A stretch of 21,131 bases of DNA from assembly GCA_934371915.1 (NCBI GenBank), contig CAKROE010000038.1, positions 1 through 21,131 of the forward strand. Direction: 5' to 3'. Source of the DNA: an uncultured Blautia sp. GTDB lineage: Bacteria > Bacillota > Clostridia > Lachnospirales > Lachnospiraceae. The notes under the pieces were generated by a model. The model saw only the letters and a program-made list of their open reading frames with translations, was not told the origin of the DNA and made no database searches. The position numbers and the translations under genes are program-made. Of the stretch, positions 4,942 to 21,131 are shown in pieces (within the stretch, counting starts at the first letter, position 1; every line of letters begins with the position of its first letter).

Positions 4942-5080
4942 AGTTACTGGAATTATATTTTGCAAAGACCAAGCTACCGTTTCAAAATGGTGCACAAACA
5001 AAGCGCAACCAGGACTTGAAATTAATACTGATAGCGAAAAACTTAGATGTTGACATTCGGGAACTAATAGTTCGAACCAA

Positions 5081-5091: not shown

Positions 5092-5451
5092 ATGACAGGA
5101 TTAAGTGATAAAGCATTTGCTACAATGGCTGTTTGCGAAGAAACTAAGAGACCATTCGGTATAACCGTGGACTATATTGGTCCTCGGCATTATAAATTTT
5201 TATGGGCTTTCAAAATAGATAAGGATAAAGCTCATAGAGAAGGTTACGATGAACACACTGTAACAGGTAGCGTTGAACTTGATTCTGAGTACCCAGGATG
5301 TCCTTACTGTGGAAGCAAGCAATTCTATATCTGCGGATGTGGTAAAATCATTTGCTATCACGGTGAAAGAGTTGTAACATGTCCTGCTTGTGGTCAACGA
5401 GGAGAAATAACGACTGTAAGTGAAATAAATATTAAAGGTGGTGGTTACTAA
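5092..5451 (+). CDS. Stand-alone TerY-C-like zinc-binding protein
   Basis: This 119-aa protein has a Cys-rich C-terminal half: C70 and C73 (CPYC), C81 and C83 (CGC), C88 with H90, and C97 and C100 (CPAC). That order fits the TerY-C metal-binding domain usually found at the C-terminus of TerY VWA proteins, and should bind two zinc ions. The first 60 residues (FATMAVCEETKRPFGITVDY) resemble the stretch preceding the zinc knuckles in that family. Here it is encoded separately, while the TerY protein two genes downstream lacks it, so the two probably form one functional unit. It is the first gene of the operon, 23 bases before the kinase. It is cytosolic, with no signal peptide. The domain name is from recall of the pattern and needs a profile search; zinc binding itself is well supported. 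Confidence 0.72.
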   Translation: MTGLSDKAFATMAVCEETKRPFGITVDYIGPRHYKFLWAFKIDKDKAHREGYDEHTVTGSVELDSEYPGCPYCGSKQFYICGCGKIICYHGERVVTCPACGQRGEITTVSEINIKGGGY

Positions 5452-5474
5452 CCCACACCAACTTATAAAAATAA

Positions 5475-6758
5475 ATGACAGAATTAAGCAAGAACTCAAT
5501 TGTTTCTTTGGTTGGTGGTGGAACAGCTACCATTGTCAAGGAATTAGGACGAGGTGGACAAGGTATTGTCTATCTTGTGGAAGTTTGTGGCGAAAAGAAA
5601 GCCTTAAAATGGTATTTAAATGCTCCTGATGATAAATTTTACCGTAATTTGGAACACAACATCGCTTCAGGTGCTCCTTCTGATGCTTTCTTATGGCCAG
5701 AATATCTGACTGAAAAGCAACAAGGAAGTTATGGGTACATCATGAAACTACGTCCGCAGAACTATTACGAGTTTGGTAATTTCTTGTTAGCAAAGGTTTC
5801 TTTCAAGTCGTTTACAGCTATGCTGTCAGCAGCTATGAGAATTTGTGATGGCTTTATGATGCTCCACCGTTTTGGTTATAGTTATCAAGACCTAAACGAT
5901 GGCAACTTTTTCATTGACCCACAAACAGGTGATGTCCTTATTTGTGACAATGACAACGTAATGCCTCAAGGTGAAAAATCTGGTATTATGGGTAAGGCAA
6001 GATATATGGCACCAGAAATCGTTGCAGGCGGTATACCTGACAAATATAGCGATAGGTTCTCCCTCTCTGTTATTTTGTTTATGCTATTCTATGCAAATCA
6101 TCCTTTCGAAGGTGCAAAAGTTGTTGCTTGTCCATGTATGACCGAATCATTCGAGAAAAGATTTTATGGTAGTGAGGCACTATTTATCTACGATCCAACA
6201 GATAAGTCTAACTTGCCAGTAAGAGGTATACATCAAAATGTCATAAGAAGATGGCCTGCGTTTCCCAAAATGCTTCGTGATACATTCATTGAAGAATTCA
6301 GCAAAGAAAAGTTGCAAAATCCAAGTTCTCGTATGATTGAGCAAAACTGGAAGAAAATCATTTCTACGATTAGAGATAGTCTTGTTGTGTGTCACCACTG
6401 TGCAGAAGAAACTTTTGTAAATATCTCTAATACAACAGACAAGTGCATGAATTGTGGTAAAGACGTTGATTTGTCAAAGCGACTTGTTATCAAGAATCGT
6501 TCACTTCCTCTGATAAATAAGACATTTATATACGTTGATGAGGACAATACTCCAGATGGTGTAGTTACAACTGATAGTAATGGTTTTATGCTTATCAAAA
6601 ATGTTTCTACTGAAACATGGACTGTAGAGACACCAAGTGGAAAAATCAAGACCGTTGCTCCGAATGAAATACTTCCTGTGAAAGAAGGATTAAAAATAAC
6701 ATTCCGTGTTCACACTGTGCCATACAAGGCAGAGATTAAAGTTATGTCGAACAATTAA
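5475..6758 (+). CDS. Ser/Thr protein kinase of the TerY-associated group, with zinc ribbon
   Basis: This is a 427-aa eukaryotic-like protein kinase. The glycine-rich loop is GRGGQG (25-30), the ATP-anchoring Lys is K45 in ALKWY, the catalytic loop is YQDLNDGN (137-144) with D139 and N144, the metal-binding DFG site reads DND (158-160), and MAPE (178-181) closes the activation segment. HRD is replaced by YQD, as often seen in this bacterial subgroup. A zinc ribbon follows (C306, C309, C324, C327), then a beta-rich C-terminal domain of about 90 residues. There is no membrane segment, unlike many PknB-type kinases, so it is cytosolic. It should phosphorylate Ser/Thr on partner proteins, with TerY and downstream operon products as candidates, opposed by the PP2C two genes on. 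All catalytic residues are present, so it is probably active. Confidence 0.9.
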   Translation: MTELSKNSIVSLVGGGTATIVKELGRGGQGIVYLVEVCGEKKALKWYLNAPDDKFYRNLEHNIASGAPSDAFLWPEYLTEKQQGSYGYIMKLRPQNYYEFGNFLLAKVSFKSFTAMLSAAMRICDGFMMLHRFGYSYQDLNDGNFFIDPQTGDVLICDNDNVMPQGEKSGIMGKARYMAPEIVAGGIPDKYSDRFSLSVILFMLFYANHPFEGAKVVACPCMTESFEKRFYGSEALFIYDPTDKSNLPVRGIHQNVIRRWPAFPKMLRDTFIEEFSKEKLQNPSSRMIEQNWKKIISTIRDSLVVCHHCAEETFVNISNTTDKCMNCGKDVDLSKRLVIKNRSLPLINKTFIYVDEDNTPDGVVTTDSNGFMLIKNVSTETWTVETPSGKIKTVAPNEILPVKEGLKITFRVHTVPYKAEIKVMSNN

Positions 6759-6770
6759 AATTTGAATAAT

Positions 6771-7520
6771 ATGTCACTTTTAGATGATGTGGTCAGCGTG
6801 CCACGTAGAACCATGACCCTTTTCTTCCTTATTGATACATCAGGAAGTATGATGGGTAACAAAATCGGTGCCGTAAACGACGCTGTAGTAAATGTATTGC
6901 CAATGCTTGATGAGATTTCGGCTTCAAATCCTGACGCAGAGATTAAGGTGACAGCCCTTGAATTCTCTAATGGAACAAATTGGCTATACGACGAGCCAAA
7001 ATTGGCATCCGATTTCAAGTGGCAGGATGTTCAAGCCAACGGCTTGACCTCTCTTGGCGCAGCCTGTGTGGAACTCAACAACAAACTTTCTAGAAATGGA
7101 TTTATGCAGGCTGCAAGTGGTTCATTCGCACCAGCTATTATTCTTTTGTCAGATGGAGGTCCAACAGATGACTTCCAAAGTGGACTAAACAAGCTGAAGA
7201 GTAACAATTGGTTCAAGGCTGCAATCAAAATAGCCATAGCTATAGGTGATGATGCGGACAAAGACGTACTAAAAGACTTCACTGGTTCAATAGAGGCCGT
7301 CTTCACTGTTCACAACATTGATGCGCTTAAACAGGTTATTCGTGTAGTAGCGGTAACCTCCTCACAGATTGGAAGTAAGAGTTCTACCGCTGGCGAAACG
7401 AGCAAGCAAGAGCAAGTGATCAAGGATGTTACAGAAAATGTTAAAGACATTGATGGCGCACATTCTGAAGCTGCGGCTCCAGAGCCAGCAGCTTCTAACA
7501 ATTATGATGATTGGGATTAA
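6771..7520 (+). CDS. terY: TerY-type VWA protein
   Basis: This 249-aa protein starts at ATG 6771; an in-frame TTG at 6762 is possible but less likely. The VWA fold has a complete MIDAS: DTSGS (22-26), T93 in GLTSLG, and D128 in LLSDGG. The pattern TLFFLIDTSGSMMG with later LSDGGPTDD is characteristic of TerY. After residue 195 comes a low-complexity Ser/Ala/Glu tail ending NNYDDWD, in place of the zinc-binding TerY-C domain, which is encoded separately at the start of the operon. In TerY-phosphatase-kinase triads, TerY is thought to be a metal-dependent scaffold whose state is set by the kinase and PP2C. It lies between those two genes with 12 and 20 base gaps. It is cytosolic. The symbol marks the family; this is not the plasmid tellurite-resistance locus. 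Confidence 0.88.
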   Translation: MSLLDDVVSVPRRTMTLFFLIDTSGSMMGNKIGAVNDAVVNVLPMLDEISASNPDAEIKVTALEFSNGTNWLYDEPKLASDFKWQDVQANGLTSLGAACVELNNKLSRNGFMQAASGSFAPAIILLSDGGPTDDFQSGLNKLKSNNWFKAAIKIAIAIGDDADKDVLKDFTGSIEAVFTVHNIDALKQVIRVVAVTSSQIGSKSSTAGETSKQEQVIKDVTENVKDIDGAHSEAAAPEPAASNNYDDWD

Positions 7521-7540
7521 ACAAGATATTTTGAAATTAG

Positions 7541-8947
7541 ATGAAAGATTTACATCACTCATGTCAAGGCGAAAGCCACATCTTATCAAATAAGGTGTGC
7601 CAAGATTCGTCTTACAGTTCTACAAGCGACACTATGTCCATTGCAATCGTATGTGATGGACATGGTGGGGCACGCTATTTTAGAAGTGATGTTGGTTCTC
7701 GTTTTGCTGTAGATGCAACCAAAGAATGTGTTCAAGCCTTTGTGTCTGAAATAGATGTGAACTTGTTCAAGAATAAACCTTTTACTCAAAAGGAAGCGCT
7801 GTCTTCCGAAGCAAGTTCAAATATCTATACAAAAGACACGAATGTTGACAAGGCACTTCGTCAACTGTTCTCTTCAATTATCTATTGTTGGAGAGAAAAA
7901 ATCACACAACATTCACAAAGCACTCCTTTATCAGAAAAAGAAAAGTCTTCGATAAAAGCAGATTATCTCTCTGATTTTGAAAAAGGCATTGGCATTGAGA
8001 AAACGTACGGTTGCACATTGATGTGCTACGTATACACAGCACATTTCTGGTTTGCCTTTCATATTGGCGACGGCAAATGTATTGCTTTTGATGATAATGG
8101 AACTTGGTTTGAACCCATCCCCTGGGACGAAAAATGTTTCTTAAATAAGACGACGTCACTTTGTGACTCATCAGCCATAGAAGAATTCCGGTACTGCTAT
8201 AGTGGTGACGGAAATAATCCCGTAGCCGTATTTCTTGGCTCTGATGGAATTGACGATTCCTTTGGTGAAACCGAGAATATGGTAAATTTCTATGTTCAAA
8301 TTCTCAAACTTATAAACAAAGAGGGGCTTGAAACTGCTGTAGCCAATATTCAAGAGACCTTACCGCAATTAAGTAAAATTGGCAGCAAGGACGATATGTC
8401 TATAGCCTGCATCTACGACGAAGAATCTCTTCGAAAAAAAGAGAAACATCTCGTTGGGTGGCAAAAGCGGAATATAGAGAACCAACTATTTGAAACAAAC
8501 AAACGCATTCTTAAATATAAGGAGGAAATTACGCGTCTTGGCAAATGTGACCTCAGAAATCAGAGGCTAATGATAGATTTTCAATATGCAAAGCAAGATT
8601 TATCAAAAGCTTTTGAATTAAAGCACTCACTTGCAAATAAGTGGAATAAAATTTCTGAGGAAATAGATGGAGAATCGTATACACCTTATAATGACGAGAT
8701 TGGTTGGGAAGAATCATATCTTGTAGAGTCGGAATTAACTGACGCGAATTGCACATCGACGCCCCCTACGAATGAGGCAAAAACAAATGTAAAAGACACT
8801 CCTACCGATAATACTAATGAAGCATGTTATGAAAACTCCGAAGAAGATACTGTGACTGGATTAGAAGCCGATGAGACCATTGAGGCTGAAGAGAAGAACA
8901 TGACCGACATGAAAGATAAGGACAACAATACTGCTGAAAAAGAATGA
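7541..8947 (+). CDS. PP2C-family Ser/Thr phosphatase with acidic C-terminal tail
   Basis: This 468-aa protein carries a PP2C (PPM) domain in the first 290 residues. The metal-binding motif is VCDGHGG (D39), followed by HIGDGK near 175, GSDGIDDSFG near 235 and SKDDMSIACIY near 282-292. This is the full set of Asp positions expected for a two-metal phosphatase. Residues about 298-375 are predicted helical and coiled-coil. The rest is an acidic tail rich in Glu, Asp, Thr and Asn. It should reverse the action of the kinase two genes upstream. The coiled coil and tail exceed the usual PP2C length of about 250 and may tether it to another operon protein. Its stop overlaps the next start by four bases (ATGA), which suggests translational coupling. 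Confidence 0.9.
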   Translation: MKDLHHSCQGESHILSNKVCQDSSYSSTSDTMSIAIVCDGHGGARYFRSDVGSRFAVDATKECVQAFVSEIDVNLFKNKPFTQKEALSSEASSNIYTKDTNVDKALRQLFSSIIYCWREKITQHSQSTPLSEKEKSSIKADYLSDFEKGIGIEKTYGCTLMCYVYTAHFWFAFHIGDGKCIAFDDNGTWFEPIPWDEKCFLNKTTSLCDSSAIEEFRYCYSGDGNNPVAVFLGSDGIDDSFGETENMVNFYVQILKLINKEGLETAVANIQETLPQLSKIGSKDDMSIACIYDEESLRKKEKHLVGWQKRNIENQLFETNKRILKYKEEITRLGKCDLRNQRLMIDFQYAKQDLSKAFELKHSLANKWNKISEEIDGESYTPYNDEIGWEESYLVESELTDANCTSTPPTNEAKTNVKDTPTDNTNEACYENSEEDTVTGLEADETIEAEEKNMTDMKDKDNNTAEKE

Positions 8948-10377
8948 CTTTACATGAAGCTATAAAAAAGTTGGTTGCGCAGTTTGGTGAGAGCATCGTG
9001 ACCGAAGTGAGGTTGGCCAATTTATTGGCTGACCTCAACGGCTATCAGGACTACCCTGCCATGAAGATGGTATTAAAAGATTTTCTGAAAGCTGGATATG
9101 GCAAGAAATTATTTGATATATATTCTAAAGACTCCCAAAATGCCATCAGTAAAAGCGTAGATTTTACTAAAACTTTTGCAAGCGTTTCAAACTACAAAGA
9201 AGATTTGATTAGTTATGCATTTGATTGCATACTGTTTGCACTTGGTTGTATTACAACAATCAACGAACCAATGACTAAGGGGTATGACCCTTATACAAAG
9301 GGGGATGGTGACATCTTGGACAACTTGGCAAACCAGTTAGCCTCACTTCAAAAGGAATATCTTGACTTGTTGGATAGATTGGCTACTTTACCACAAAATA
9401 TTTATAAAGATGCACCGGGCTATTATAGCACAGAAGCCTTAAACAAACTCTATGCAGTAGAAGCCAAGATTGCTGTAATCATCAAAGAGACAAACTCTAC
9501 AGTAAATTTAGACTGGTGTACAAACAAGCGGACAGAAAAACTTGAATATTTCAAGAAGCAAAAAACTGAGGCTGTTGCAAAAGCGCTTGATGAATTGAGA
9601 TGTCAATATAAAAAATTGCTTGCATCACTTATAATTGTACCGAAGAAGTTTGGTATAAAGCGTTCTGGACACTATGACGATAATGGTGAGAAGGAATTGT
9701 CTTCTGTAGAAGATGATATAAAACTCAACTATTACAACATGGGGAAGACCTATGATAATTGGTGCAAAAAAGAGAAGAACAAATATCTTGTAAAATATCA
9801 TATTGACAACAAGAGCGTTGCACTCCAACTGTTTGCGAAAATAGGTATACCTGCAGCGGTAGTTATTGGAGCGTCAGGTACAGGAATAAGCTATATGACT
9901 TCATCAAGCGCTATTGAGCAATTTGAACACACAATAGCCTTGGGTGAGCAACAAGCAACTGCTGGAGAATACGGTAAGGCATTGCAACTCTTTAGCGATG
10001 CAAAGAGCAACTATACCGCATCATTCAGAACAGGTCATTATCAAGGTGTTGCTGACGAACATATAAGTTCGAGTGTAAATGATGCTACGCAGTTAAGTGT
10101 CAAGATGATAGAAGAAGGCAAACTCATAGATGCGAGTACATTGCTTTCATCTTTGCCTCAGAAAGTCATCTCTGAAAACCAACAGTTTTTAGATCAATAC
10201 AATTCTGCAAAATCAACTTTGGACAAAGCTATAAATGAAGGACTTGACAATCTCATCTCTGATATATCAAGCAATCATGGAAAATTGAGCGGCACGGCAA
10301 AACAAAAGTTGAATGAATTGCTGAAGATAAATCCTAATGATTATTGGTTGAACTTCATTAAGAATAAAGAAAAATGA
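8944..10377 (+). CDS. Membrane protein with TPR-like repeats, unknown function
   Basis: I do not recognise this 477-aa protein as a named family. Residues 1-65 form a helical domain (MTLHEAIKKLV, then RLANLLADLNGYQDYPAMK) that reminds me of an N-terminal domain shared by various Bacteroidota signalling proteins; this is an impression only. Residues about 135-290 are long charged helices. One clear membrane segment lies near 296-316 (FAKIGIPAAVVIGASGTGISY). The final 150 residues are helical and TPR-like (TAGEYGKALQLFSDA, then EEGKLIDASTLLSSL). With one membrane span it could place the helical part in the cytosol and the repeats outside. Overlapping the PP2C gene by ATGA on one side and hxsA by ATGA on the other, it is well placed to link the phosphosignalling group to the exported Hxs protein. 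Confidence 0.65.
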   Translation: MTLHEAIKKLVAQFGESIVTEVRLANLLADLNGYQDYPAMKMVLKDFLKAGYGKKLFDIYSKDSQNAISKSVDFTKTFASVSNYKEDLISYAFDCILFALGCITTINEPMTKGYDPYTKGDGDILDNLANQLASLQKEYLDLLDRLATLPQNIYKDAPGYYSTEALNKLYAVEAKIAVIIKETNSTVNLDWCTNKRTEKLEYFKKQKTEAVAKALDELRCQYKKLLASLIIVPKKFGIKRSGHYDDNGEKELSSVEDDIKLNYYNMGKTYDNWCKKEKNKYLVKYHIDNKSVALQLFAKIGIPAAVVIGASGTGISYMTSSSAIEQFEHTIALGEQQATAGEYGKALQLFSDAKSNYTASFRTGHYQGVADEHISSSVNDATQLSVKMIEEGKLIDASTLLSSLPQKVISENQQFLDQYNSAKSTLDKAINEGLDNLISDISSNHGKLSGTAKQKLNELLKINPNDYWLNFIKNKEK

Positions 10378-11285
10378 AAAATAAGGCTAAAAAGATAATT
10401 CGTAACATTCTGATTGGTGCAGTAGCATCAATCTACAACTCTGATGCACAGGCTGCGGATAATTCTGCAAAACCACTTTTTGAGGGTCTTAATGGAGATG
10501 ACAAGGAAAGTGCAGTAAGTGCTCTTAAAAATAAAATTATAAGGAATGTTTTACAGATAAAGAAAAATGGTGATACAAAACTAATTGCAGGACACCGTTC
10601 ACATATGTCACACCGTTCTGGCGGTGGTGGTGGCGGTGGTCACTACTCACATGCTTCTCACTATTCTGGTTATGGTGGTGGAAATTCGAGACATAGTAGC
10701 CATTCTTCTCATAGTTCAAGCTCATACGGCACAACCTATTCTGCGCCAAAGCCAGCTCCAAAAACGTACAAAACTTACGATTTGGGAGACAGAACGTTGA
10801 AGTCTGGACTATATGGTAATGATGTCTCTAAACTAACATCTTTGCTCGTATCAAAGAAATACATGAGCAGTTCATGGATTACCATGCAAAATGGTTATCC
10901 TATTTATAATGCTCGTGTAATTTCAGCGGTAAAACGTTTTCAAAAAGATGCTGGCAAGGCACAGGATGGAGTTATGACGTCATCACTTGCTACAACTCTT
11001 GAAAATTGGGATGAAAGTAAGACTACTCTTGTTTTAGGTATAAGAATTCTTGGGTATAATGAGACCGCAGAATTGGCTGGAAACGATGTTAATGAGTTAA
11101 TCGCTTTATTGCGTAATGCCGGTTTTCCACCAGACCCTTCAAAACTGAAATACAATGATAGTAAGGCTGTGTTCACAAAAGACATAGAAACAGCTGTCAA
11201 ATTGTTCCAAGCATATAATGGCTTAACTCCTGATGGGAAAGTAGATGAAACTACAATATCAAAACTAAGAACGATAGCAAAATAG
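10374..11285 (+). CDS. hxsA: His-Xaa-Ser repeat protein HxsA, exported, peptidoglycan-binding-like
   Basis: This 303-aa protein has a signal peptide (residues 1-28, KK, hydrophobic core, cleavage after DAQA). It then has nine His-x-Ser triplets in three clusters of three: HRSHMSHRS (74-82), HYSHASHYS (90-98) and HSSHSSHSS (107-115), separated by Gly-rich spacers. After a Pro/Lys linker come two peptidoglycan-binding-1-like repeats, about 141-210 (AVKRFQKDAG, then QDGVM) and 222-300 (AVKLFQAYNG, then PDGKV). HxsA is the presumed substrate of the paired radical SAM enzymes HxsB and HxsC. The modified residues and final product are not known to me. The peptidoglycan-binding part suggests that the modified repeat segment is held in the periplasm at the wall. 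It overlaps the upstream gene by ATGA and is 8 bases before hxsD. Confidence 0.88.
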   Translation: MKNKAKKIIRNILIGAVASIYNSDAQAADNSAKPLFEGLNGDDKESAVSALKNKIIRNVLQIKKNGDTKLIAGHRSHMSHRSGGGGGGGHYSHASHYSGYGGGNSRHSSHSSHSSSSYGTTYSAPKPAPKTYKTYDLGDRTLKSGLYGNDVSKLTSLLVSKKYMSSSWITMQNGYPIYNARVISAVKRFQKDAGKAQDGVMTSSLATTLENWDESKTTLVLGIRILGYNETAELAGNDVNELIALLRNAGFPPDPSKLKYNDSKAVFTKDIETAVKLFQAYNGLTPDGKVDETTISKLRTIAK

Positions 11286-11293
11286 CCAAAAAT

Positions 11294-11590
11294 ATGGAAT
11301 TAAAGATAGATAGGAATATATATTCTGATGCTTGTGTATCAAAAGCGATATATAGTCTCTCAAAAGACTATGCTATTAGTCGCAACCTTGAGGGTAATAT
11401 AGAAAGACTCAATGTTATACCTCTTGGAGAAAAACAAGTACAATGCGATATTGAAGCACAGGTATTTAACACATTAAACGATTATAAGTTAAGACAAGTA
11501 ATTGAAGACGAAACGCATGACATAAGAACAATTCTTTATGCCAAAGCGTTTGCAGATTTCGATGATATAGATAGTAATGATGAAGTATAA
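11294..11590 (+). CDS. hxsD: His-Xaa-Ser system protein HxsD
   Basis: This is a 98-aa cytosolic protein. It carries the family signature NDYxLR: LNDYKLR at residues 61-67, which gave the HxsD family its early descriptive name (LLNDYxLRE). The predicted fold is short beta strands plus one helix, compatible with a peptide-recognition or chaperone role for the radical SAM pair, but that role is inference from its fixed place between HxsA and HxsB. The last 14 bases overlap the start of hxsB, so their translation is probably coupled. The length is normal for the family. The identification is supported by the motif and by the neighbours on both sides. Confidence 0.88.
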   Translation: MELKIDRNIYSDACVSKAIYSLSKDYAISRNLEGNIERLNVIPLGEKQVQCDIEAQVFNTLNDYKLRQVIEDETHDIRTILYAKAFADFDDIDSNDEV

Positions 11591-12980
11591 ATTATTGCCC
11601 TTTACATTCAGTAGGATATCGTCCAAAGAAGTTTTGGTAAACGAATTGGGAGATATGTTGGCTGTACCTGATGGTACCGTCCAAGCTGTTGTTGAACATA
11701 AAATAGACACCAAGAGCGATTTATACAAGTCATTGGTTGCAAATTTTTTCTTAACAGAGAGGACTATTCCTACATTGATAGATGTATATGCAGAAAGATT
11801 GGCTGAAAAGAAGCGTTTCATGGATGATGGGACTGCTTTGCATATTTTTGTTTTGACATTGCGGTGCAATCAAAACTGTATTTATTGTCAGGCATCAAGT
11901 CAAGACGAGCATTGTGCACACAAGTCTATGTCATTTGAAACCATGAAGTATTCTGTAGATTTGATGTTCAAGTCACGTTCTCAATGGTTGACTATGGAGT
12001 TCCAAGGAGGTGAACCCTCCCTTGAACCAAAACTTTTGCGCTATGGTATAGAACTTGCTGAAAGAAAAAACGAAACAGAGCATAGACATATGCGCTATGT
12101 CCTGTGTACAAACAGCATAAATCTTACAGAAGAGGTTCTTGATATATGCAAAACATACCATGTGCTTATATCCACCTCACTTGATGGTCCGTCATGGTTG
12201 CATAACAAAAATCGCGGAAAACAAGATAGTTATGAAAAAGTAACAAAAGGAATTACAAAAGCAAGAGCATATCTCGGAGAAGATCAGGTTGCCGCTTTGA
12301 TGACAACATCTGAACTTGCTTTGGATTATCCTAAGGAAATAGTTGATGAATATGTAAAACTTGGTTTCCATAGCATTTTTCTTCGTGCTCTTAACCCATA
12401 CGGACTTGCAAGTGAAAATTCTGATTGGGAACTTTACACTGATAGGTTTATTGAGTTCTACAAACAGGCTTTTGAGCATATCTTGGAACTCAACAAGCAG
12501 GGATTTCTTATGATAGAAGAGTTCGCAGCTATTATTCTTCGTAAGATACTTACTCCTTGGTGCACAGGGTTCGTTGATTTACAGTCACCAGCAGGTATTA
12601 TAAATTCTGTTTTGGTCTATGATTATGACGGATATTTGTACGCTTCTGATGAATCTCGCATGTTGGCAGAAGAAGGCGACTATACTTTCAGAATTGGCAG
12701 TGTAAAGGAGCGTTACGAAGACTTGTTGTATAGTAAGAAAGTCCGTTCTTGGTCAAAGTCTTGGTCAAATGAATTATTGGCTGGATGTTCAGACTGTGGT
12801 GTTCGTGCCTATTGTGGTGCAGATCCTGTGAGAAACCATTCCACACAAGGGAATTTATATGGTTACCGTCCGACATCGTTATTGTGCAAAAAGAACAAAG
12901 CGATTATTGAATATCTCATTTCACTGCTCATAGACAGAAAGGAAGAGGTTACTCAAATATTTAAGACTTGGATAATATGA
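11577..12980 (+). CDS. hxsB: Radical SAM maturase HxsB
   Basis: This 467-aa radical SAM enzyme (a second in-frame ATG at 11580 is equally possible) has an N-terminal region of 85 residues, then the 4Fe-4S cluster motif CNQNCIYC (C97, C101, C104). FQGGEP about 40 residues later is the SAM-binding GGE motif. The C-terminal region has further Cys in a SPASM-like arrangement: C404, C407 and C413 (CSDCGVRAYC) and C440, which should hold one or two auxiliary clusters. Such enzymes modify peptide substrates by radical chemistry; HxsB is expected to act on the His-x-Ser repeats of HxsA, together with HxsC. The start overlaps hxsD by 14 bases and the stop overlaps hxsC by ATGA. The specific reaction is not known to me. 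Confidence 0.92.
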   Translation: MMKYKLLPFTFSRISSKEVLVNELGDMLAVPDGTVQAVVEHKIDTKSDLYKSLVANFFLTERTIPTLIDVYAERLAEKKRFMDDGTALHIFVLTLRCNQNCIYCQASSQDEHCAHKSMSFETMKYSVDLMFKSRSQWLTMEFQGGEPSLEPKLLRYGIELAERKNETEHRHMRYVLCTNSINLTEEVLDICKTYHVLISTSLDGPSWLHNKNRGKQDSYEKVTKGITKARAYLGEDQVAALMTTSELALDYPKEIVDEYVKLGFHSIFLRALNPYGLASENSDWELYTDRFIEFYKQAFEHILELNKQGFLMIEEFAAIILRKILTPWCTGFVDLQSPAGIINSVLVYDYDGYLYASDESRMLAEEGDYTFRIGSVKERYEDLLYSKKVRSWSKSWSNELLAGCSDCGVRAYCGADPVRNHSTQGNLYGYRPTSLLCKKNKAIIEYLISLLIDRKEEVTQIFKTWII

Positions 12981-13846
12981 AACAACGTGATATAGACATA
13001 AAATCTAATGATAATACTTTGTTCGTAACAGAGCAATGTAACAATCGTTGTGTCATGTGCTGCCAACCTCCTAAAAGAGTAAACGACATTGATTTGTATT
13101 TTGAACAAAATATAGAACGTGTTAAAAACGCTCCCAAGGATCTTCCCGTTATAGGAATTACTGGAGGCGAACCAACTTTGTTAGGAGAAAGATTGATAGA
13201 TTTGATACTTCTTATCAGACAAGAATTACCCGATACTGATATTCATATTCTTTCAAATGGAAGAAATTTTAAAAACATCAATTATACAAAGCGTATTGTT
13301 GAGGCTGGAGAAAACAAACTGATTCTCGGCATTCCATTTCATTCTGATTATGAAGGCGACCATGACATGATAGCAGGAGCAAAAGGAGCATACAATGAAA
13401 CCATATTGGGATTATACAATATAGCTATGCAGGGTGGAAGTGTTGAACTCCGTATCGTCATGAACAGCCTTAACTATAATCGTTTTTTACCCATGGCTGA
13501 ATATATACACAAGAACTTGTCATTTGTGGCATGGACAGCTTTTATGGGCATGGAGCGAACTGGTTTGGCTGAAAAGCGAAGTGAAAAAATATGGGTAGAA
13601 CCATGTGAATATATGTCACAATTAAGTGATGCAGTTCATTTCTTAGATGATTGGCATCACGAAGTTGCCATCTATAATATTCCATTATGTTTGTTACCCA
13701 ATGATTTGCATGCCTTTGCCAAAAAAAGTATATCCGATTGGAAGAACTATTACCCTGAACTATGCAATGGGTGCTCTGTGAAAGATGATTGTTGTGGACT
13801 ATTCGCCACATCAAGTAAAGAGTTTTTGAATCTACATACGCTATAA
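12977..13846 (+). CDS. hxsC: Radical SAM maturase HxsC
   Basis: This 289-aa radical SAM enzyme starts at ATG 12977 in the ATGA overlap with hxsB; an upstream TTG at 12968 is less likely. The cluster motif is CNNRCVMCC (C21, C25, C28, with an extra C29), followed by QPPKR, and the GGE motif is in ITGGEPTLLG near residue 60. The C-terminus has C263, C266, C272 and C273 (CNGCSVKDDCC), suggesting an auxiliary iron-sulfur cluster in a shorter SPASM/twitch-like domain. The EQCNNxCxMCCQPP signature and the pairing with HxsB and HxsD fit HxsC. It presumably completes the modification of HxsA, either alternately with HxsB or as a complex. The next gene starts one base after its stop. Confidence 0.92.
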   Translation: MKQRDIDIKSNDNTLFVTEQCNNRCVMCCQPPKRVNDIDLYFEQNIERVKNAPKDLPVIGITGGEPTLLGERLIDLILLIRQELPDTDIHILSNGRNFKNINYTKRIVEAGENKLILGIPFHSDYEGDHDMIAGAKGAYNETILGLYNIAMQGGSVELRIVMNSLNYNRFLPMAEYIHKNLSFVAWTAFMGMERTGLAEKRSEKIWVEPCEYMSQLSDAVHFLDDWHHEVAIYNIPLCLLPNDLHAFAKKSISDWKNYYPELCNGCSVKDDCCGLFATSSKEFLNLHTL

Positions 13847-13847
13847 A

Positions 13848-14948: not shown

Positions 14949-14959
14949 AAGTCAAAAAT

Positions 14960-16477
14960 ATGGAAAATGAACTACATATAACAGCAAGGGTTCCTCAACA
15001 GATTCAGAGTTGCGAGGAAACCTTTTTTCCAAATAACGGATATGGAACAATTGAGTTAACTCCTTATGGAGATTATTTGCTCAATACCACTTATATCACA
15101 GAAACTGCTGCTCGAAGAACAAACGAGTACAAAAGTGCATACAAGGAGGTTACTGAAAATATGTTTCATGCTTATGAGGAAGAGACGCGTGCATACACAT
15201 CTCTTCATGAGAATATGCCTTTGGTAGAGTCTGCCGTTAAACTCAAAAAAGACTTGATGACTTTGGCTCCTCAAAAATACGAAAGAGGTCGCTTCACTTT
15301 TAGTAAACCCACAAAAGACGACATTGAGAAAGACCTTATAGAAGAGGCAAAGAACATTAACTTTGACATGACAAACACCAATGGTCATGTTGATGAAAAG
15401 ATGTTTGTGAAAGAGCATGTCAATGAAATGATAGAAATTCGTCAACATGCCTGGCAAGAAGCGTGTGACTTTTTCAATAAGATAGAGGATGCACGTGAGG
15501 AAAGAGTAAATGCAAAATTCTATGTTGAGTATAAGACGTTGTACAACAGAGCAAAAGAATACATCGAGGGAAATGAAACCTCTGTAAAGCAAGAACTTTT
15601 GAATTTGTGTGGAAAAGTTTCAGTTCCATACAATCTGAGCCTTTCGTTTGCATATAATCAAACAACGCATATATTAGAAACCTCTATAATAGTGGAAGAT
15701 GGAATTTCTGTTCCCATTTCTAAGGCCGTCATTTTGGCATCTGGAAAGATTTCTATCAAGAATAAATTGGTAAGAGAAACGATTACAGAGAAGACAATCA
15801 GTGCGATCAGTTTAACATATTTCCTTGCAGCTCACTTGTTCAATGTATCTCCCAATGTTCTGTATTTACGTCTTTTTTTGTACGAAAGAAACAAACAATC
15901 TCCATTACTATGGGTAGAATTTGAACGAGAAAAGTTTTTATGCGTTAACCCCTATAGAGTAAGTGTTGTATCCGACATTCTTAGTTATCCGAATGTATTG
16001 GAGTTTAAGAATAGGGCAGATTCAATTGCATTGTGTGCTATGGACAAGGATTCGTTCGATAACAATGTAGCTATGGCTATTCAGCATGCTAATGAAATTC
16101 ATCCTAAGTATCAATCTTCACATGTAGACTTAAACAATGATATAGCTATTTCTTTTGATGACGTAAGTCTTCCGCTTAAAGTGCACAATATAGTGAATGA
16201 AGTTCGTAAGGCAATATCCTTGACGAACAATGACAACAATATTGATGAAGATAGAGATCCTCTATTTCGCCAAGCTGCCGAACTTCTTGTAATACACCAA
16301 CAAGGTTCTACATCATTGATACAACGCAAATTTTCCATTGGATTTATTCGTGCTACACGACTAATGGATCAATTGGAACATGTAGGAATTATTGGACCGA
16401 CACGCGGTTCAAAGCCACGAGAAGTACTCGTTTCGGATACTATACAATTGGAGAATATTTTTTCAAAATTAAAATAA
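14960..16477 (+). CDS. Coiled-coil protein with FtsK-gamma winged-helix domain, no ATPase
   Basis: This 505-aa protein starts at ATG 14960; an earlier in-frame ATG at 14909 would overlap the previous gene by 40 bases. Residues about 50-215 are long charged helices, probably coiled coil. Residues about 215-395 form a mixed alpha/beta domain that I do not recognise. Residues 433 to about 500 are a clear FtsK-gamma domain: DPLFRQAAELLVIHQQGSTS, then QRKFSIGF, RLMDQLE, GIIGPTRGSKPREVLV. In FtsK/SpoIIIE this winged helix reads polar DNA sequences and activates XerD at dif. Here the FtsK ATPase (Walker A GxxGxGKS) and membrane parts are absent, so this is not a translocase. The domain could bind DNA as a regulator of the operon, or recognise a recombinase or protein partner. 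Confidence 0.82.
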   Translation: MENELHITARVPQQIQSCEETFFPNNGYGTIELTPYGDYLLNTTYITETAARRTNEYKSAYKEVTENMFHAYEEETRAYTSLHENMPLVESAVKLKKDLMTLAPQKYERGRFTFSKPTKDDIEKDLIEEAKNINFDMTNTNGHVDEKMFVKEHVNEMIEIRQHAWQEACDFFNKIEDAREERVNAKFYVEYKTLYNRAKEYIEGNETSVKQELLNLCGKVSVPYNLSLSFAYNQTTHILETSIIVEDGISVPISKAVILASGKISIKNKLVRETITEKTISAISLTYFLAAHLFNVSPNVLYLRLFLYERNKQSPLLWVEFEREKFLCVNPYRVSVVSDILSYPNVLEFKNRADSIALCAMDKDSFDNNVAMAIQHANEIHPKYQSSHVDLNNDIAISFDDVSLPLKVHNIVNEVRKAISLTNNDNNIDEDRDPLFRQAAELLVIHQQGSTSLIQRKFSIGFIRATRLMDQLEHVGIIGPTRGSKPREVLVSDTIQLENIFSKLK

Positions 16478-16510
16478 CAATGCGTTAGTGTAGCTAATAT
16501 CAACATCGTA

Positions 16511-18487
16511 ATGATAATGCAAAGTAAACAAATAATTTGTATATTGTTGGCACTGCTCATGTGGAATCCTTTAATGCTTCTTCTTTTGACAAAGAGTTGG
16601 GGCATTACTGCAATAATTACCATGATTGTGATAGCAATATCATTTATGGTGTCAACATCAGAAAGCCTACGTGTAAAAGTGTGGGCTTTCAATTTGTGTG
16701 CTTTGTCGAGCATAGCATTTCATTCAGAATTATTGTTTAGAGAGTTCCTTTCAGACAAGGATATCCCCAATTTATATGAACTTCATGGTAAATACTATTT
16801 CAACAAAACTTTTCTTGACAAAGAATTCAGAACCAATGAATATGTAAGTAGTTACAAAACTAATTGTCAAGGATATCGCATAGACAATTTGTCAAATCCC
16901 TACGATTCAGTCAAAACCTGCGATTGGCTGTTCATTGGTGACTCTTTTACCCAAGGAGCACAAGTTAATTACAACGATTTATATACAACCCAACTGTTCA
17001 GAAACTTTCCAGACAAGATTATTGTAAATGCAGGAATAAGTGGCGCAGGATTGTATGACGAACTGAACTATTTCAAGGATAAAGGCAAAACATTAAAACC
17101 TAAGGTCGTCTTTCTACAGATTGGGGCGTTCAACGATTTTTTCAATATCAAAGAACGTTTTGCTACCTTTCAAGACTATTTGATGGAGAAGTCTGATTTA
17201 TACAGATATTTTGCTTATAACATAGTTTCAACAGATTCTCTTCCTTTGGGCAGATGGACAGAACCGTTCTTCCCATCAAAGAAAGAAAACATTGACTACA
17301 ACATTCTATTCAAGGAAAAATCTGAAGTCAAGATTGCTGATATGAAAGCATTCAAAACTTGCATCAATGCGTGGAAAAAGGAGGTAGAAAGTATCGGAGC
17401 AAAGTTGGTACTATTTCTTATACCATCCAAAGAACAAGTTTCACCTACGCTGTTGAAGGAGGTGATGGATAAATATAGTATCACATCTGCACAATTGGAC
17501 ATGACTGCCCCTAATCGTCTTTTTGAGAACGTCTCAAACGAATTGAACTTGATTCATTATGATTTGACAAAAGGCTTCTGTAAATCAGAAGATTTCCCGT
17601 TTTTCAATCAAGATGAGCATTTAAGTATAAGTGGGCATACCATAATAGCTACAGAACTCACAAAACGCTTACAAAACTATTTAAGTGCAACGAATTTACT
17701 CAGTGTGAAAAATAGCCATGACAGATATCCTTCGTTTCATGGAGATAATCTTCTTTACCAAAGTCAAGATATAGATGGTGGTTACCTTATATGCAACCAA
17801 TGCTTAGACGGAACTAACCGGCAAATAATGGTGAAGAGCTATGAAGAGCTTATACATCCCATCATCTCACAAGATGGTAGATATTTGGCATATACAGAAG
17901 GTAATCAAGAAAGCAGCGAGACTGATGTGACCGTGCGAGATATAGTCTTGAAAACAGAGCATAGGGTAAATGGGAACAAACTGTATGCTGCTATTCCCAT
18001 GTTCAATCATCAAGGGACAATGTTAGCATTGCCTATATGGAACCGGAATAAAGCAAATCCTGCCAACATCGCCATCTATAGTCTTGAAAAGAACTGCATA
18101 ATAAAGACAATACCATCAAAAAGAGAATGTTGGAGACCGATATTCACAAATGATGACAAAAAAGTCTTATACATTCAAAAAGAGAAGTTTTTCAAAATTA
18201 AATCCTTTGACTTGGCAACAGGAGCGATTTCTGAGATACTTTCGTTACCATTTGATATATGGGATATTGCACTATCTCCTTCAGGACGCTACATTGTATT
18301 TGCTGGAAATAAAGAGGGTAATTGGGACTTGTTCTCCTATTGTTTGAAGACCAAAAAGGTAAGACAGTTGACAAAAACAAAAGGGAACGAATGGGATCCT
18401 GCATTTGGAAAATCAGATTCTGATTTGTTCTATGCAGGAACATTTGGCTTTAATGACGGTATTTTTTTCAAGAAGATAGAGTTATGA
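16511..18487 (+). CDS. Membrane-anchored SGNH-hydrolase-like protein fused to a TolB/WD40-like beta-propeller
   Basis: This is a 658-aa protein. Two or three N-terminal membrane segments lie at about 8-27, 31-49 and perhaps 58-72. An SGNH/GDSL fold follows: FIGDSFTQG (Ser145), Gly in NAGISGAG near 173-180, IGAFND with N208, and the distal pair D368 and H370 in DEHLSISGH. All catalytic positions are filled, so esterase or acyl-transfer activity is plausible. Residues about 395-658 form repeated beta-propeller blades (SQDGRYLAYTEG, then SPSGRYIVFAGN and NEWDPAFGKSDSDLFYAG) of the TolB/WD40 type. SGNH proteins paired with MBOAT proteins take part in O-acylation of surface polymers (AlgJ/AlgX, DltD, PatB). 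The stop overlaps the MBOAT start by ATGA. The propeller fusion is unusual in my experience and may supply glycan or protein binding. Confidence 0.82.
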   Translation: MIMQSKQIICILLALLMWNPLMLLLLTKSWGITAIITMIVIAISFMVSTSESLRVKVWAFNLCALSSIAFHSELLFREFLSDKDIPNLYELHGKYYFNKTFLDKEFRTNEYVSSYKTNCQGYRIDNLSNPYDSVKTCDWLFIGDSFTQGAQVNYNDLYTTQLFRNFPDKIIVNAGISGAGLYDELNYFKDKGKTLKPKVVFLQIGAFNDFFNIKERFATFQDYLMEKSDLYRYFAYNIVSTDSLPLGRWTEPFFPSKKENIDYNILFKEKSEVKIADMKAFKTCINAWKKEVESIGAKLVLFLIPSKEQVSPTLLKEVMDKYSITSAQLDMTAPNRLFENVSNELNLIHYDLTKGFCKSEDFPFFNQDEHLSISGHTIIATELTKRLQNYLSATNLLSVKNSHDRYPSFHGDNLLYQSQDIDGGYLICNQCLDGTNRQIMVKSYEELIHPIISQDGRYLAYTEGNQESSETDVTVRDIVLKTEHRVNGNKLYAAIPMFNHQGTMLALPIWNRNKANPANIAIYSLEKNCIIKTIPSKRECWRPIFTNDDKKVLYIQKEKFFKIKSFDLATGAISEILSLPFDIWDIALSPSGRYIVFAGNKEGNWDLFSYCLKTKKVRQLTKTKGNEWDPAFGKSDSDLFYAGTFGFNDGIFFKKIEL

Positions 18488-19695
18488 TAAGAAAGTTTAC
18501 ACTACTTTTACTAAGTCTTGCGTGTTATGCATATTTCACGCAATGGGATGTTGTATACTTTCTTCTTTTGGCAATCTTTGTTGTCTGTTCAACCCACATA
18601 AATAACGCACCCATCAGAAAGGCTCTTGCATTTGTGACTATCGTCAGCCTCATTGCCGGATTTTTATTTTTTAAGTCTGCCACAATTAGGGGAAATATAA
18701 TATTAGGGTATTCTGTATTTGCTTTCTGCGGCTTATCCTTCGTTATAGACCAATATAAAACAAGTCAAAGATATGATGTGATAGACATTCTACTTTATCT
18801 GTTTTTCTTTCCAAAAATGCTGGCTGGTCCAATTGTACGTGTTAAAGACTTTACAACACAACTTAACAAGAACGCAATGTCTAAGCACCAATTGTATCAA
18901 GGCGCAAAACTTCTTATATATGCAAGTTTCCTAAAATTTATTGTTGCTGACTTGGTTTTGAACAATGACATGACAGGAATAGGCTTAAATTTGTTGATGC
19001 AAACAATGATATGGGGCATTCGATTTTATCTTGATTTCTATGCATATTCTCTAATCGCTGTCGGTCTTGGACTCTTTGTAGGAGTCAGGTTGCCATACAA
19101 TTTTAACAATCCATATGGCGCATTGACATTCCGAGATTTATGGCATCGTTGGAACATCACATTGTCTCAATGGCTAAGCAAATATGTCTATATACCACTT
19201 GGGGGAAGTAGATGCTCTGCGGCTAACACATATTTGAACATTGTCTTAACATTTGTTGTTAGTGGTCTTTGGCATGGCATAACCTTACCGTTTGTGTTGT
19301 GGGGAATTTGTCATGGCACATTAGTTTGCTTGGAACGAATTTACCTCAAATATTCAGGAAAGGCATCACGGAAATGGTCGTACAGATTATTTGTTGTTTT
19401 GACAACAATGTTCTTATGGCAACTTTTTCGTCTAACGGATTTGGAACAAATTGCAGACTTTACTGCCCAACTTTGTTCGTTGGCAGCTATCGACAAAAAA
19501 ACATTGATATATGGTATCTCTGCATTTTTGTTATTATACGCAATAGAAAGACCGATAGTAAAACGGCTGATGCTTGGAAACGAGAACTTGCGATGCTATG
19601 TAATTTGCGAAGTGTCGATTCTGTCCATCATGTTGGCTGTATTAGTATTATGCCCACTTCATTATACGTTTAATTTCTTCTATCTAAAATTTTAA
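18484..19695 (+). CDS. MBOAT-family membrane O-acyltransferase, AlgI-like
   Basis: This is a 403-aa polytopic membrane protein with about ten hydrophobic segments. The MBOAT signatures are present: FFPKMLAGPIVR near 110-120, LWHRWNITLSQWLSKYVYIPLGG (H221 region) and SGLWHGITLPFVLWGICHG with the catalytic His near 264. The length is somewhat shorter than the usual AlgI of about 460-500. MBOAT partners of SGNH proteins carry an acyl group, often acetyl, across the membrane onto a glycan or other surface substrate. Translational overlap with the SGNH gene upstream and a 1-base gap to the carbamoyltransferase downstream argue for a shared substrate. The substrate cannot be read from the sequence. 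Confidence 0.9.
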   Translation: MIRKFTLLLLSLACYAYFTQWDVVYFLLLAIFVVCSTHINNAPIRKALAFVTIVSLIAGFLFFKSATIRGNIILGYSVFAFCGLSFVIDQYKTSQRYDVIDILLYLFFFPKMLAGPIVRVKDFTTQLNKNAMSKHQLYQGAKLLIYASFLKFIVADLVLNNDMTGIGLNLLMQTMIWGIRFYLDFYAYSLIAVGLGLFVGVRLPYNFNNPYGALTFRDLWHRWNITLSQWLSKYVYIPLGGSRCSAANTYLNIVLTFVVSGLWHGITLPFVLWGICHGTLVCLERIYLKYSGKASRKWSYRLFVVLTTMFLWQLFRLTDLEQIADFTAQLCSLAAIDKKTLIYGISAFLLLYAIERPIVKRLMLGNENLRCYVICEVSILSIMLAVLVLCPLHYTFNFFYLKF

Positions 19696-19696
19696 C

Positions 19697-21131
19697 ATGG
19701 TCGTATTAGGTATTTCAGCATATTATCATGATTCTGCCGCAGCATTGATCGTTAACGGCAAAGTAACTGCGGCCATATGTGAAGAACGATTGAGCCGTAC
19801 TAAACATGATAAATCGTTTCCTAAGAGAGCAATTGCTTTTTGTGTCGAATATAGCGGTATCACATATACAGATATTGACTATGTAGTATTTTATGAGAAG
19901 CCATTAAGAAAGTTCGAACGTATCTTAACTACTCATATATTTCATGCGCCCAATGGGTTCAAAACTTTTGTAAAGGCAATGCCGATATGGTTAAAGGAAC
20001 GCTTGGACATGAAATCAACGATAACGAAATCTCTGAATGAATTGTGCCATCATAGAATCAAATGGGACATACGTTTCGTTGAGCATCATTTGTCGCACGC
20101 TGCAATGGCATATTTCACATCGCCATTTGAAAATGCAGCCATTTTAGTTGTTGATGCTGTGGGTGAAAATGCCACCACATCACTATTCAAAGCCATTGAT
20201 TGCAAGATTGAATGTATCAAACAACAGAGTTTTCCAAATTCTGTAGGATTGCTTTATTCTGCATTTACTTATTATTTAGGATTCCAAGTGAATTCCGATG
20301 AATATAAGGTGATGGGATTGGCTCCCTATGGAGACCTTTGTGCAGAACAAACACAACGGTTTATCAACATCATCAAGACTAAACTCGTAAGCATAGGAGA
20401 TGATGGAAGCATCATTATAAACCAGAAATATTTCACTTTCATGGTTGGTCTCAGAATGGTAGTTGACCACGTGTGGGCAAATTTATTCGGTATTGCTAAA
20501 AGAGAAACTGATGCGCCAATAAAGACTGAGCACATGAATCTTGCCGCAGCTATACAATATGTGACAGAGGAAATCTTCTTGAAATTGGCTGCTCATATAA
20601 AAGCTTTGACCAAATGCAACAATATTTGCATATCTGGAGGGTGTGCGCTGAATTGTGCCGCAATGGGTAAAATCAAAGCAAGCGGTTTGTTTTCCGGTGT
20701 ATTCATACCTTTTGCCCCTGGTGATGACGGAGGAGCAATCGGTACGGCGTTGGCTTTTTATGCCCTTGCGTCTGGTAAGAGGTGTATGCCAAATGTCTCC
20801 CCATATCAAGGATGCTGCTTTAGGAATGAAGAGGTGGAAAAGACACTAAAGGATGAAAAACTTGAATTCAGTTTTCTCCAAGGAGATAATTTATACGATA
20901 AAATTGCAGTTTCATTGTCCCACGGGAATATAATTGGTTGGTTTCAAGGAAGAATGGAATTTGGTCCTCGCGCCTTAGGTAATAGAAGTATTTTGGCAGA
21001 CCCACGAGACCCTTCAATGAAAGATCGTATAAATGCAAAAGTTAAATACAGGGAAACTTTTAGACCCTTCGCACCTGTAGTAACACAAGATGATGCATCT
21101 CGATTCTTTGAAGATTCTAACTCTCCATTTA
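19697..21131 (+). CDS. NodU/CmcH-family carbamoyltransferase, 3'-truncated by window end
   Basis: The gene starts at ATG 19697, one base after the MBOAT stop, and remains open to the last base, giving 478 codons of an expected 550-620. The N-terminal ASKHA-type domain begins VLGISAYYHDSAAALIVNG, with EERLSRTKHD, VEHHLSHAAMAYF (metal-binding His) and VVDAVGENATT. It continues with DEYKVMGLAPYG, ISGGCALNC and PFAPGDDGGAIG. The C-terminal carbamoyladenylate-forming (YrdC-like) domain starts near 395 and contains FQGRMEFGPRALGNRS and NAKVKYRETFRPFAP. The enzyme uses carbamoyl phosphate and ATP to transfer a carbamoyl group to a hydroxyl, known on Nod factors, cephalosporins, aminoglycosides and other small molecules. 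The acceptor here is unknown. It may share one with the MBOAT/SGNH pair. The operon may continue past the window. Confidence 0.93.
   Translation, partial: MVVLGISAYYHDSAAALIVNGKVTAAICEERLSRTKHDKSFPKRAIAFCVEYSGITYTDIDYVVFYEKPLRKFERILTTHIFHAPNGFKTFVKAMPIWLKERLDMKSTITKSLNELCHHRIKWDIRFVEHHLSHAAMAYFTSPFENAAILVVDAVGENATTSLFKAIDCKIECIKQQSFPNSVGLLYSAFTYYLGFQVNSDEYKVMGLAPYGDLCAEQTQRFINIIKTKLVSIGDDGSIIINQKYFTFMVGLRMVVDHVWANLFGIAKRETDAPIKTEHMNLAAAIQYVTEEIFLKLAAHIKALTKCNNICISGGCALNCAAMGKIKASGLFSGVFIPFAPGDDGGAIGTALAFYALASGKRCMPNVSPYQGCCFRNEEVEKTLKDEKLEFSFLQGDNLYDKIAVSLSHGNIIGWFQGRMEFGPRALGNRSILADPRDPSMKDRINAKVKYRETFRPFAPVVTQDDASRFFEDSNSPF

Follow-up and report, generated by a model that had tools for sequence, protein, structure and literature searches.

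A 14-gene operon joining a TerY-type kinase group, a His-Xaa-Ser system and acyl/carbamoyl-transfer genes: a putative phosphorylation-switched envelope system

The 14 contiguous + strand open reading frames (ORFs) that run from position 5092 to the end of the stretch of DNA analysed here (contig CAKROE010000038.1 of assembly GCA_934371915.1, from an uncultured Blautia sp.; 21,131 nucleotides, hereafter the window) very probably constitute one heritable system. They join a TerY-type kinase group (genes 1-4), a bridge protein (gene 5), a His-Xaa-Ser (Hxs) core with its candidate substrate (genes 6-9), two conserved proteins (genes 10 and 11) and a group of acyl- and carbamoyl-transfer type (genes 12-14). 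As to what the system does, the reading that I favour is that of a phosphorylation-switched envelope system for stress or conflict, whose output would be a modified, peptidoglycan-binding His-Ser protein; I give this full mechanism a probability of roughly 0.45.

Results

The ORFs, called by a greedy longest-ORF method, follow one another closely. From gene 1 to gene 8 the intervals are 23, 3 (12 from the first ATG of gene 3), 20, -4, -4, 8 and -14 bases, negative values being overlaps, and from gene 8 to gene 14 they are -13 (-4 from the ATG at 12977), 1, 11 (from the ATG at 14960), 33, -4 and 1. A terminator scan of both strands found no terminator-like site between the 14 genes; the eight sites on both strands together are not above shuffled sequence (9.6 +/- 3.4), and the two on the + strand lie within genes 12 and 13. 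The first-pass annotation of this DNA had proposed a 14-gene operon with gaps of at most 33 bases, several overlaps and no terminator inside, and this is borne out. Promoter-like sites (63, versus 56.4 +/- 8.9 in shuffles) are not in excess, so that the scan is uninformative on internal promoters, either way; a Bacteroidales promoter pattern has three matches (1.81 expected), none of them immediately 5' of gene 1. Since the same gene order is seen again in other genomes, the operon arrangement is more than chance.

Recurrence was assessed by means of HxsB. An alignment of 14 HxsB proteins yielded 233 relatives in genome contigs, of which the best 80 were fetched and searched with profiles of the 14 families, the presence thresholds being set by hand. 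These 80 loci (numbered with L; genomes with G) are biased towards the relatives of the window, and contig ends hide genes in many of them; L010 and L012 come from one metagenome-assembled genome (MAG), and L026 equals L101, their HxsB proteins being identical. A TerY-type kinase accompanies hxsADBC in 17 of the 80, together with a vWA gene (17), a PP2C gene (17), a TerY_C gene (13) and an SGNH gene (4). Besides these, L013 shows PP2C at the edge of its contig, and another locus with the kinase group and hxs (L102) came from the sample of order genomes described below. All 14 families are present in L015 and L025, and 13 of them, gene 10 being the missing one, stand in the order of the window in Segatella baroniae B14 (L006) and Bacteroides faecichinchillae (L043). 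The proposal that kinase, Hxs and SGNH/MBOAT/carbamoyltransferase genes belong together as a recurring set is thus upheld, their adjacency being found in other genomes and not in one strain only.

The modules are nevertheless separable, and the idea of one fixed set has to be given up. No such kinase is seen in the examined flanks of 63 of the 80 loci; among the 41 whose two flanks each reach 8 kb or more (long-flank loci), 29 are kinase-negative and 12 kinase-positive. Order varies too, the triad of kinase, vWA and PP2C genes being 3' of hxs in L003 and L004, and gene 11 following gene 14 in L025. A genome-wide search found the kinase in none of 14 hxs genomes that have a kinase-free locus; it had no positive control of its own, and the same alignment did detect the kinase in genomes of the order. 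TerY is also found without hxs, at loci L096-L098. A fixed 14-gene unit, matched in full by two of the 80 loci, was accordingly rejected.

In the HxsB tree a single well-supported clade of 37 rows takes in every kinase-positive row, together with some that are kinase-negative; those labelled belong to Prevotellaceae, Bacteroidaceae, Muribaculaceae and unassigned Bacteroidales, and the sister of the window is the kinase-negative L001. Samples of 393 genomes of the order and 395 of the phylum were centred on one genome (G001), which had itself been reached through hxs and hence is not a random member. Among the former, HxsB lies above the cut-off in 15 and this kinase family occurs in 6; three genomes hold both, G001 and G185 as neighbouring genes and G378 on two short contigs, and at E 1e-100 HxsB is missing from the kinase genomes G208, G218 and G356. 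Pairwise distances correlate with those of HxsB at r 0.90, 0.86 and 0.90 for genes 12, 13 and 14 (8-9 rows), at 0.84 for gene 11, and at 0.64-0.71 for genes 2, 3, 4, 5 and 10 (kinase 0.71, gene 5 0.70), a co-divergence consistent with joint inheritance.

Gene 5, which lies between the kinase group and the Hxs core, fuses a TerY-associated adaptor to an hxs-associated membrane and TPR half; I read this fusion as tying the two modules together, and the adaptor may act by direct binding. This bridge was overlooked in the first-pass account of the modules. The protein has no Pfam match; hydropathy gives it one membrane-type helix at about residues 292-318, and its structure model (predicted local distance difference test, pLDDT, 87; predicted template modelling score, pTM, 0.39) is helical, with TPR-type structure matches around residues 320-385. 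Adaptor and tail are both present in all 17 kinase-positive hxs loci, and the adaptor is absent from all 29 long-flank kinase-negative ones. Six hxs loci without a visible kinase do carry gene 5. In three of them (L018, L041, L057) gene 5 consists of the C-terminal tail only, and a search of their genomes yielded no such kinase; in the other three (L011, L013, L026) both adaptor and tail are present, the contig ending at gene 5 or at PP2C, and in the genome of L026/L101 the triad is located on another contig, L100. Moreover, the N-terminal 115 or so residues recur on other proteins of the same locus, including FtsK-type, TPR and PEGA proteins, with at least one extra copy in 9 of the 17 kinase loci. 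A case outside hxs is L096, where the adaptor forms residues 1-111 of a 2302-residue DUF4011/AAA/MTES_1575 protein of helicase-nuclease type.

Among the genes that accompany hxs elsewhere, two kinds are unexpectedly enriched, a nuclease and a K+ channel. A DNA/RNA non-specific endonuclease (PF01223) occurs in 27 of the 80 hxs loci, including L003, L010, L016, L026, L037, L044, L046 and L056, those of L008 and L017 being short frames near a contig end; by eye, an export- or lipoprotein-type stretch opens most of the 17 nucleases inspected. In 22 of the 80 there is a channel-type gene whose filter reads T[TV]GYG[DE], and a voltage-gated-type K+ channel lies directly 3' of hxsC in L007 (6053-6910), L020 (12212-13087), L037 (12291-13046), L040 (12275-13027) and L044 (12218-13072), while in L006 and L025 a K+ channel follows the operon. 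Among the 17 kinase loci, the nuclease is present in 13, the channel in 10 and at least one of the two in 15; for all 41 long-flank loci the figures are 19 and 15. In a sample of 30 of these 41, chosen after the nuclease and channel locus counts had been seen, and under a Poisson expectation that treats loci as independent, the nuclease falls inside the hxs locus of about 21 kb in 16 of 30 genomes versus 0.46 expected (61 copies in 105.7 Mb), and the channel in 13 of 30 versus 0.26 expected. L096 (G208:C2:114500-134000), which has the TerY triad and gene 10 without hxs, carries FtsK and a non-specific endonuclease alongside.

Several hxs loci without TerY have other large genes. In Prevotella lacticifex (L034, 6309-9695) a 1128-residue TPR-CHAT gene stands between an hxsA-like gene and hxsD. 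A tubulin-like and papain-like pair lies in the hxs run of L037 (1280-7545, by Pfam) and, by sequence clustering, of L042 (977-7239) and L044 (2484-8725). L029 has a DUF4236/FtsK-gamma/AAA protein, which proteins of L030 and L054 resemble in length and in where FtsK-gamma lies, and L045 a Virul_Fac protein, which I take to be SrfC-like, with genes of similar size in L046. Many other hxs loci have nothing comparable beside hxsADBC. Outside Bacteroidota, a thermonuclease is found next to hxsC in two of the seven plasmid stretches examined, one from Nostoc and one from Methylobacter; in the latter (L106, 11591-12307) it starts 14 bases 3' of hxsC, near an annotated pair of AAA ATPase and helicase. 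Thermonuclease relatives are near hxs in L078 and L080. L096 also encodes two Fe-hydrogenase-like proteins and a SpoIIE-type phosphatase.

The individual genes of the operon are collected in Table 1. Domains were checked with Pfam and NCBIfam, the latter for genes 1-10. The expected motifs are present in the kinase, PP2C, vWA, both radical S-adenosylmethionine (SAM) enzymes, SGNH and the carbamoyltransferase, and within them lie what are presumably the catalytic residues.

Table 1. Genes of the operon, with positions in the window and supporting matches
Gene	Product	Position	Strand	Matches and features
1	Stand-alone TerY_C metal-binding domain protein	5092..5451	+	119 residues; CPYC, CGC, CPAC; PF15616 9.4e-13
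2	Ser/Thr kinase	5475..6758	+	PF00069 (Pkinase) 1.6e-13; glycine loop, DLNDGN, CDND
3	TerY-like vWA protein	6762..7520 (first ATG 6771)	+	PF00092 (VWA) 1.5e-8; DxSxS
4	PP2C-type phosphatase	7541..8947	+	PF13672 (PP2C_2) 1.5e-29; CDGHGG, SDGI, KDDMS
5	Bridge protein	8944..10377	+	N-terminal all-helical adaptor of about 115 residues, coiled coil, membrane-type helix, C-terminal TPR-like region
6	HxsA-like substrate	10374..11285	+	Nine H-x-S motifs at 74-115; PG_binding_1 (PF01471 1e-14) at 236-298
7	HxsD	11294..11590	+	TIGR03976 69.1 vs cut-off 50
8	HxsB radical SAM maturase	11577..12980	+	TIGR03978 563.1 vs cut-off 370; CNQNCIYC at 97
9	HxsC radical SAM maturase	12968..13846 (ATG 12977)	+	TIGR03977 328.5 vs cut-off 267.9; CNNRCVMC at 24
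10	Conserved protein, 366 residues	13848..14948	+	Zinc-ribbon-like start CKYCG; alignment of 12 loci
11	Conserved region of about 420 residues with C-terminal FtsK-gamma winged helix	14960..16477	+	PF09397 7.3e-26
12	Membrane-anchored SGNH with TolB-like PD40 propeller	16511..18487	+	PF13472 (Lipase_GDSL_2) 1.1e-8; PF07676 4e-8
13	MBOAT acyltransferase	18484..19695	+	PF03062 4.4e-27; nearest solved relatives DltB, 8.3e-17
14	O-carbamoyltransferase (TobZ/NovN/GdmN type)	19697..21131, runs off window	+	PF02543 4.6e-80; PF16861 1.9e-32; HHLSH at 130

Beyond its kinase domain the gene 2 protein bears zinc-ribbon-like Cys pairs (CHHC at 306, CMNC at 324), matched by no zinc-ribbon model of Pfam, and it is 63-75% identical to its counterparts in nine other loci. 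The family of gene 1 accounts for the 13 TerY_C genes counted above.

HxsB and HxsC are radical SAM maturases, and gene 6 would be their substrate. The first-pass annotation had spoken of a modified His-rich protein that the system builds and exports. As regards the protein itself, the H-x-S motifs of gene 6 agree with this, while its scores are below the curated cut-offs of both HxsA (TIGR03979, 26.1 vs 121.65) and HxsA2 (NF038296, 32.8 vs 48). As regards export, the claim is not supported: none of the 14 genes was recognised as encoding an exporter, and a full wall-to-surface export pathway within the operon was rejected on that ground. A second, shorter HxsA-like gene lies between hxsA and hxsD in L006 (9194-9706) and L043 (9194-9583). 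HxsB has 475 plasmid matches at E 1e-5, of which 399 extend over at least 80% of HxsB and 318 are from Klebsiella, the weakest rows being other radical SAM enzymes; a Leptospira phage record (KF114877) has an annotated hxsB of 47.9% identity.

Genes 10 and 11 are each found in 13 of the 17 kinase-positive hxs loci, one or the other in 16, and neither in the 29 long-flank kinase-negative loci. The C-terminal part of gene 10 looks bacterial-PH-like, which is my reading of the sequence and not a database match; against solved structures its best E is 0.61. For gene 11 Pfam matches FtsK-gamma only, with no FtsK motor (FtsK_SpoIIIE) domain, and FtsK-gamma was likewise the only clear match when the model was compared with structures. 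The FtsK-gamma end, first taken as part of the system, turns out to be swappable: some relatives of 446 residues do without it, that of L016 has DUF3320 in its place, and among the fetched hxs loci it is on gene 11 only in L017, so that it was rejected as a core part; in the databases, a number of near relatives of gene 11 carry it. In the order, 3 of 286 genomes carry the gene 11 family, all with HxsB, and in G001 and G185 it is a neighbour of hxs.

MBOAT/SGNH pairs transfer acyl groups, and MBOAT proteins of the DltB/AlgI type are paired with an SGNH partner. In the operon a DltB-like MBOAT gene overlaps the SGNH gene; it differs from such pairs in that the SGNH protein has a TolB-like propeller (matching TolB structures to 4.8e-14), in the carbamoyltransferase gene that comes next, and in that the full-length SGNH protein is confined to hxs loci in the genomes searched. 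The gene 12 protein has hydrophobic N-terminal segments, and its motifs GDS (143), FND (207) and DEH (368) are invariant in nine loci. It is found in 10 of the 80 hxs loci and just beyond the end of an eleventh, L009; in full length it occurs in 1 of 393 order genomes and 1 of 395 phylum genomes, both being G001, and hxs-linked, and in 10 of 27 hxs genomes it is present as a single copy at the hxs locus (nine were known beforehand, the genome of L009 being new). In G313 the match is partial, covering SGNH only, and HxsB gives none. Carbamoyltransferases act on hydroxyls, and TobZ, NovN and GdmN do so on small molecules. Gene 14 shares with these both Pfam domains and the HHLSH motif, and its structure matches are Carbam-oyltransferase, NovN, GdmN and TobZ; it differs in being cut at its C-terminus by the window end. 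Genes 12-14 lie beside hxs without TerY in the flanks in Draconibacterium (L047), Tenacibaculum (L056) and Lutibacter (L069), and in a Tannerellaceae MAG with hxs and without TerY (L072) genes 12-13 are present and gene 14 was not found.

Three features of the window are outside the operon: a vWA-domain (CoxE-like) gene at 1-891, open at its 5' end, a gene for a DUF1573 protein at 2049-3329, and on the - strand a DUF4372-type fragment at 4579-5001, probably a transposase remnant, which ends 90 bases before gene 1.

Discussion

The mechanism that I favour may be pictured as follows. In the cytoplasm the zinc-binding kinase, the phosphatase and the vWA protein would form a phosphorylation switch, which would signal through the gene 5 adaptor and its single membrane helix to the outer TPR-like part at the envelope. 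HxsB and HxsC, assisted by HxsD, would modify the His-x-Ser repeats of HxsA before it leaves the cytoplasm; once outside, HxsA would bind peptidoglycan, and the products of genes 12-14 would place acyl and/or carbamoyl groups on it or on an adjacent surface molecule. The role at the envelope is most likely one in stress or conflict (for instance against incoming phage or DNA) and not in routine metabolism; what suggests this is the presence at sibling loci of helicase-nuclease-type proteins, FtsK motors, exported-type nucleases, K+ channels and CHAT or papain-like proteases.

Known systems offer partial parallels; the four articles cited here by accession are drawn on for excerpts. In the part of PMC11090510 consulted, the TerY-P triad consists of a TerY-like vWA protein, a PP2C and a kinase with a C-terminal zinc ribbon, and a TerY-P-like module with an OB-fold kinase is reported active against phages; the same activity is reported for a TerY-P system of P. 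aeruginosa in an excerpt of PMC10889362. All three components are present and adjacent in the window, with a kinase that is zinc-ribbon-like, and nuclease/helicase-type partners stand at sibling loci of the operon. Compared with the triad as it appears in that part of PMC11090510, the operon differs in having a separate TerY_C protein and in its partner, an Hxs system whose substrate is of envelope type and to which the adaptor/TPR gene 5 forms the link. Along similar lines, the conflict systems with effector-associated domains, as presented in the excerpted part of PMC7159879, resemble these loci in placing one small helical domain on several different proteins of a locus; the likeness concerns arrangement, and the gene 5 adaptor has no Pfam match. 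With the Hxs system as defined by NCBIfam (TIGR03976-TIGR03979) the operon shares HxsD, HxsB and HxsC above the cut-offs, the order A-D-B-C and an H-x-S repeat protein; it departs from it in an HxsA-like protein below both HxsA cut-offs and with a peptidoglycan-binding part, and in the ten further genes attached.

A number of observations weigh against the proposed mechanism or against the unity of the set. All 14 families are found in only two of the 80 other loci, and L001, the nearest by HxsB (75% identity), has neither TerY kinase nor SGNH gene in its flanks or its genome, so that the set is not locked together. Co-divergence can also stem from shared whole-genome ancestry. The gene 11 family lies about 1.5 Mb from the hxs genes in G202, and thousands of its database relatives are listed without genomic context. 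As for gene 5, nothing specific matched the adaptor fold, which makes homotypic binding a guess; the structure matches cover mostly residues 123-393 and the adaptor itself barely, and the membrane helix is weak in some relatives (hydropathy 1.23 in L006 and L043). The start of HxsA is only weakly hydrophobic and signal-peptide-like. The window itself holds neither an exported-type nuclease nor a K+ channel, and PADLOC, run on ten proteins (all except HxsC and those of genes 12-14), gave partial cross-matches only, of the kinase (PD-T4-6, Mad6 and one further kinase model) and of radical SAM (pVip). Lastly, the open literature searched yielded no experimental work on an Hxs system.

The foremost alternative, though an unlikely one, is that the system serves surface building only, the TerY-type switch tuning a decorated, peptidoglycan-bound HxsA for adhesion, wall stability or barrier function. 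PG_binding_1 in HxsA and the SGNH/TolB-like, DltB-like and carbamoyltransferase partners, the first of them full-length only at hxs loci, would fit such a role, as would Draconibacterium, Tenacibaculum and Lutibacter, which have hxs and genes 12-14 with TerY not in the flanks and the kinase not in the genome. It leaves unexplained, however, the exported-type nucleases, K+ channels, and helicase-nuclease-type, CHAT and papain-like partners.

Less likely still is a response to metal stress, in which TerY_C, the kinase zinc ribbon and the vWA protein sense metal and the His-rich HxsA is a wall-bound metal trap. TerY-P has been hypothesised to be a metal-sensing switch (PMC11090510, in the excerpt), and the metal-type Cys pairs of genes 1 and 2 and the H-x-S motifs of HxsA accord with it. 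Yet metal binding would not require the chemistry of HxsB and HxsC, and among the 50 neighbour proteins scanned, a minority of all neighbours, there was no metal transporter or regulator.

I consider it improbable that the locus serves antagonism, with HxsA a modified and released toxin-like protein that the remaining genes control and deliver. According to the excerpted parts of two articles, HxsB belongs to a network of radical SAM enzymes mined for peptide natural products (PMC9062424), and for another conflict system it has been suggested that a peptide effector is the target of a radical SAM enzyme (PMC7159879); HxsA, however, has a peptidoglycan-binding domain, and the 14 genes include no recognised immunity gene or dedicated exporter. 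Mere coincidence, that is, independently useful modules piled up in an insertion hotspot, is very improbable and already disfavoured: the modules do occur apart, a transposase-type remnant lies upstream of the operon and transposases flank L014 and L016, but the same order in several families, the overlapping gene junctions, the gene 5 fusion and the co-divergence speak against it.

The phosphorylation-switched envelope system can be set in a wider frame, which I advance as a speculation that is more likely wrong than right. Hxs might provide the output, on the envelope side, for a family of conflict systems in which interchangeable cytoplasmic switches drive an HxsA-D core that, with the nuclease and the K+ channel, would form a wall-anchored barrier against DNA or phage and sense membrane disturbance. 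The switches might, equally tentatively, include TerY-P with the gene 5 adaptor, the tubulin-like protein with the papain-like protease, TPR-CHAT, Virul_Fac/SrfC-like proteins, and AAA with FtsK-gamma; the 14-gene operon would then be the version tailored by acyl and carbamoyl groups.

Conclusions

A search of open-access full texts gave no paper that, by title or abstract, deals with the function of Hxs or with this gene combination. With the operon described here, the Hxs system gains a concrete and testable context, namely a TerY-type phospho-switch that would act through a bridge protein, and acyl- and carbamoyl-transfer enzymes, and it is tied statistically to exported-type nucleases and K+ channels as well. 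For the TerY-type modules, in turn, the range of partners would be extended from those that target nucleic acids to an envelope-type output.

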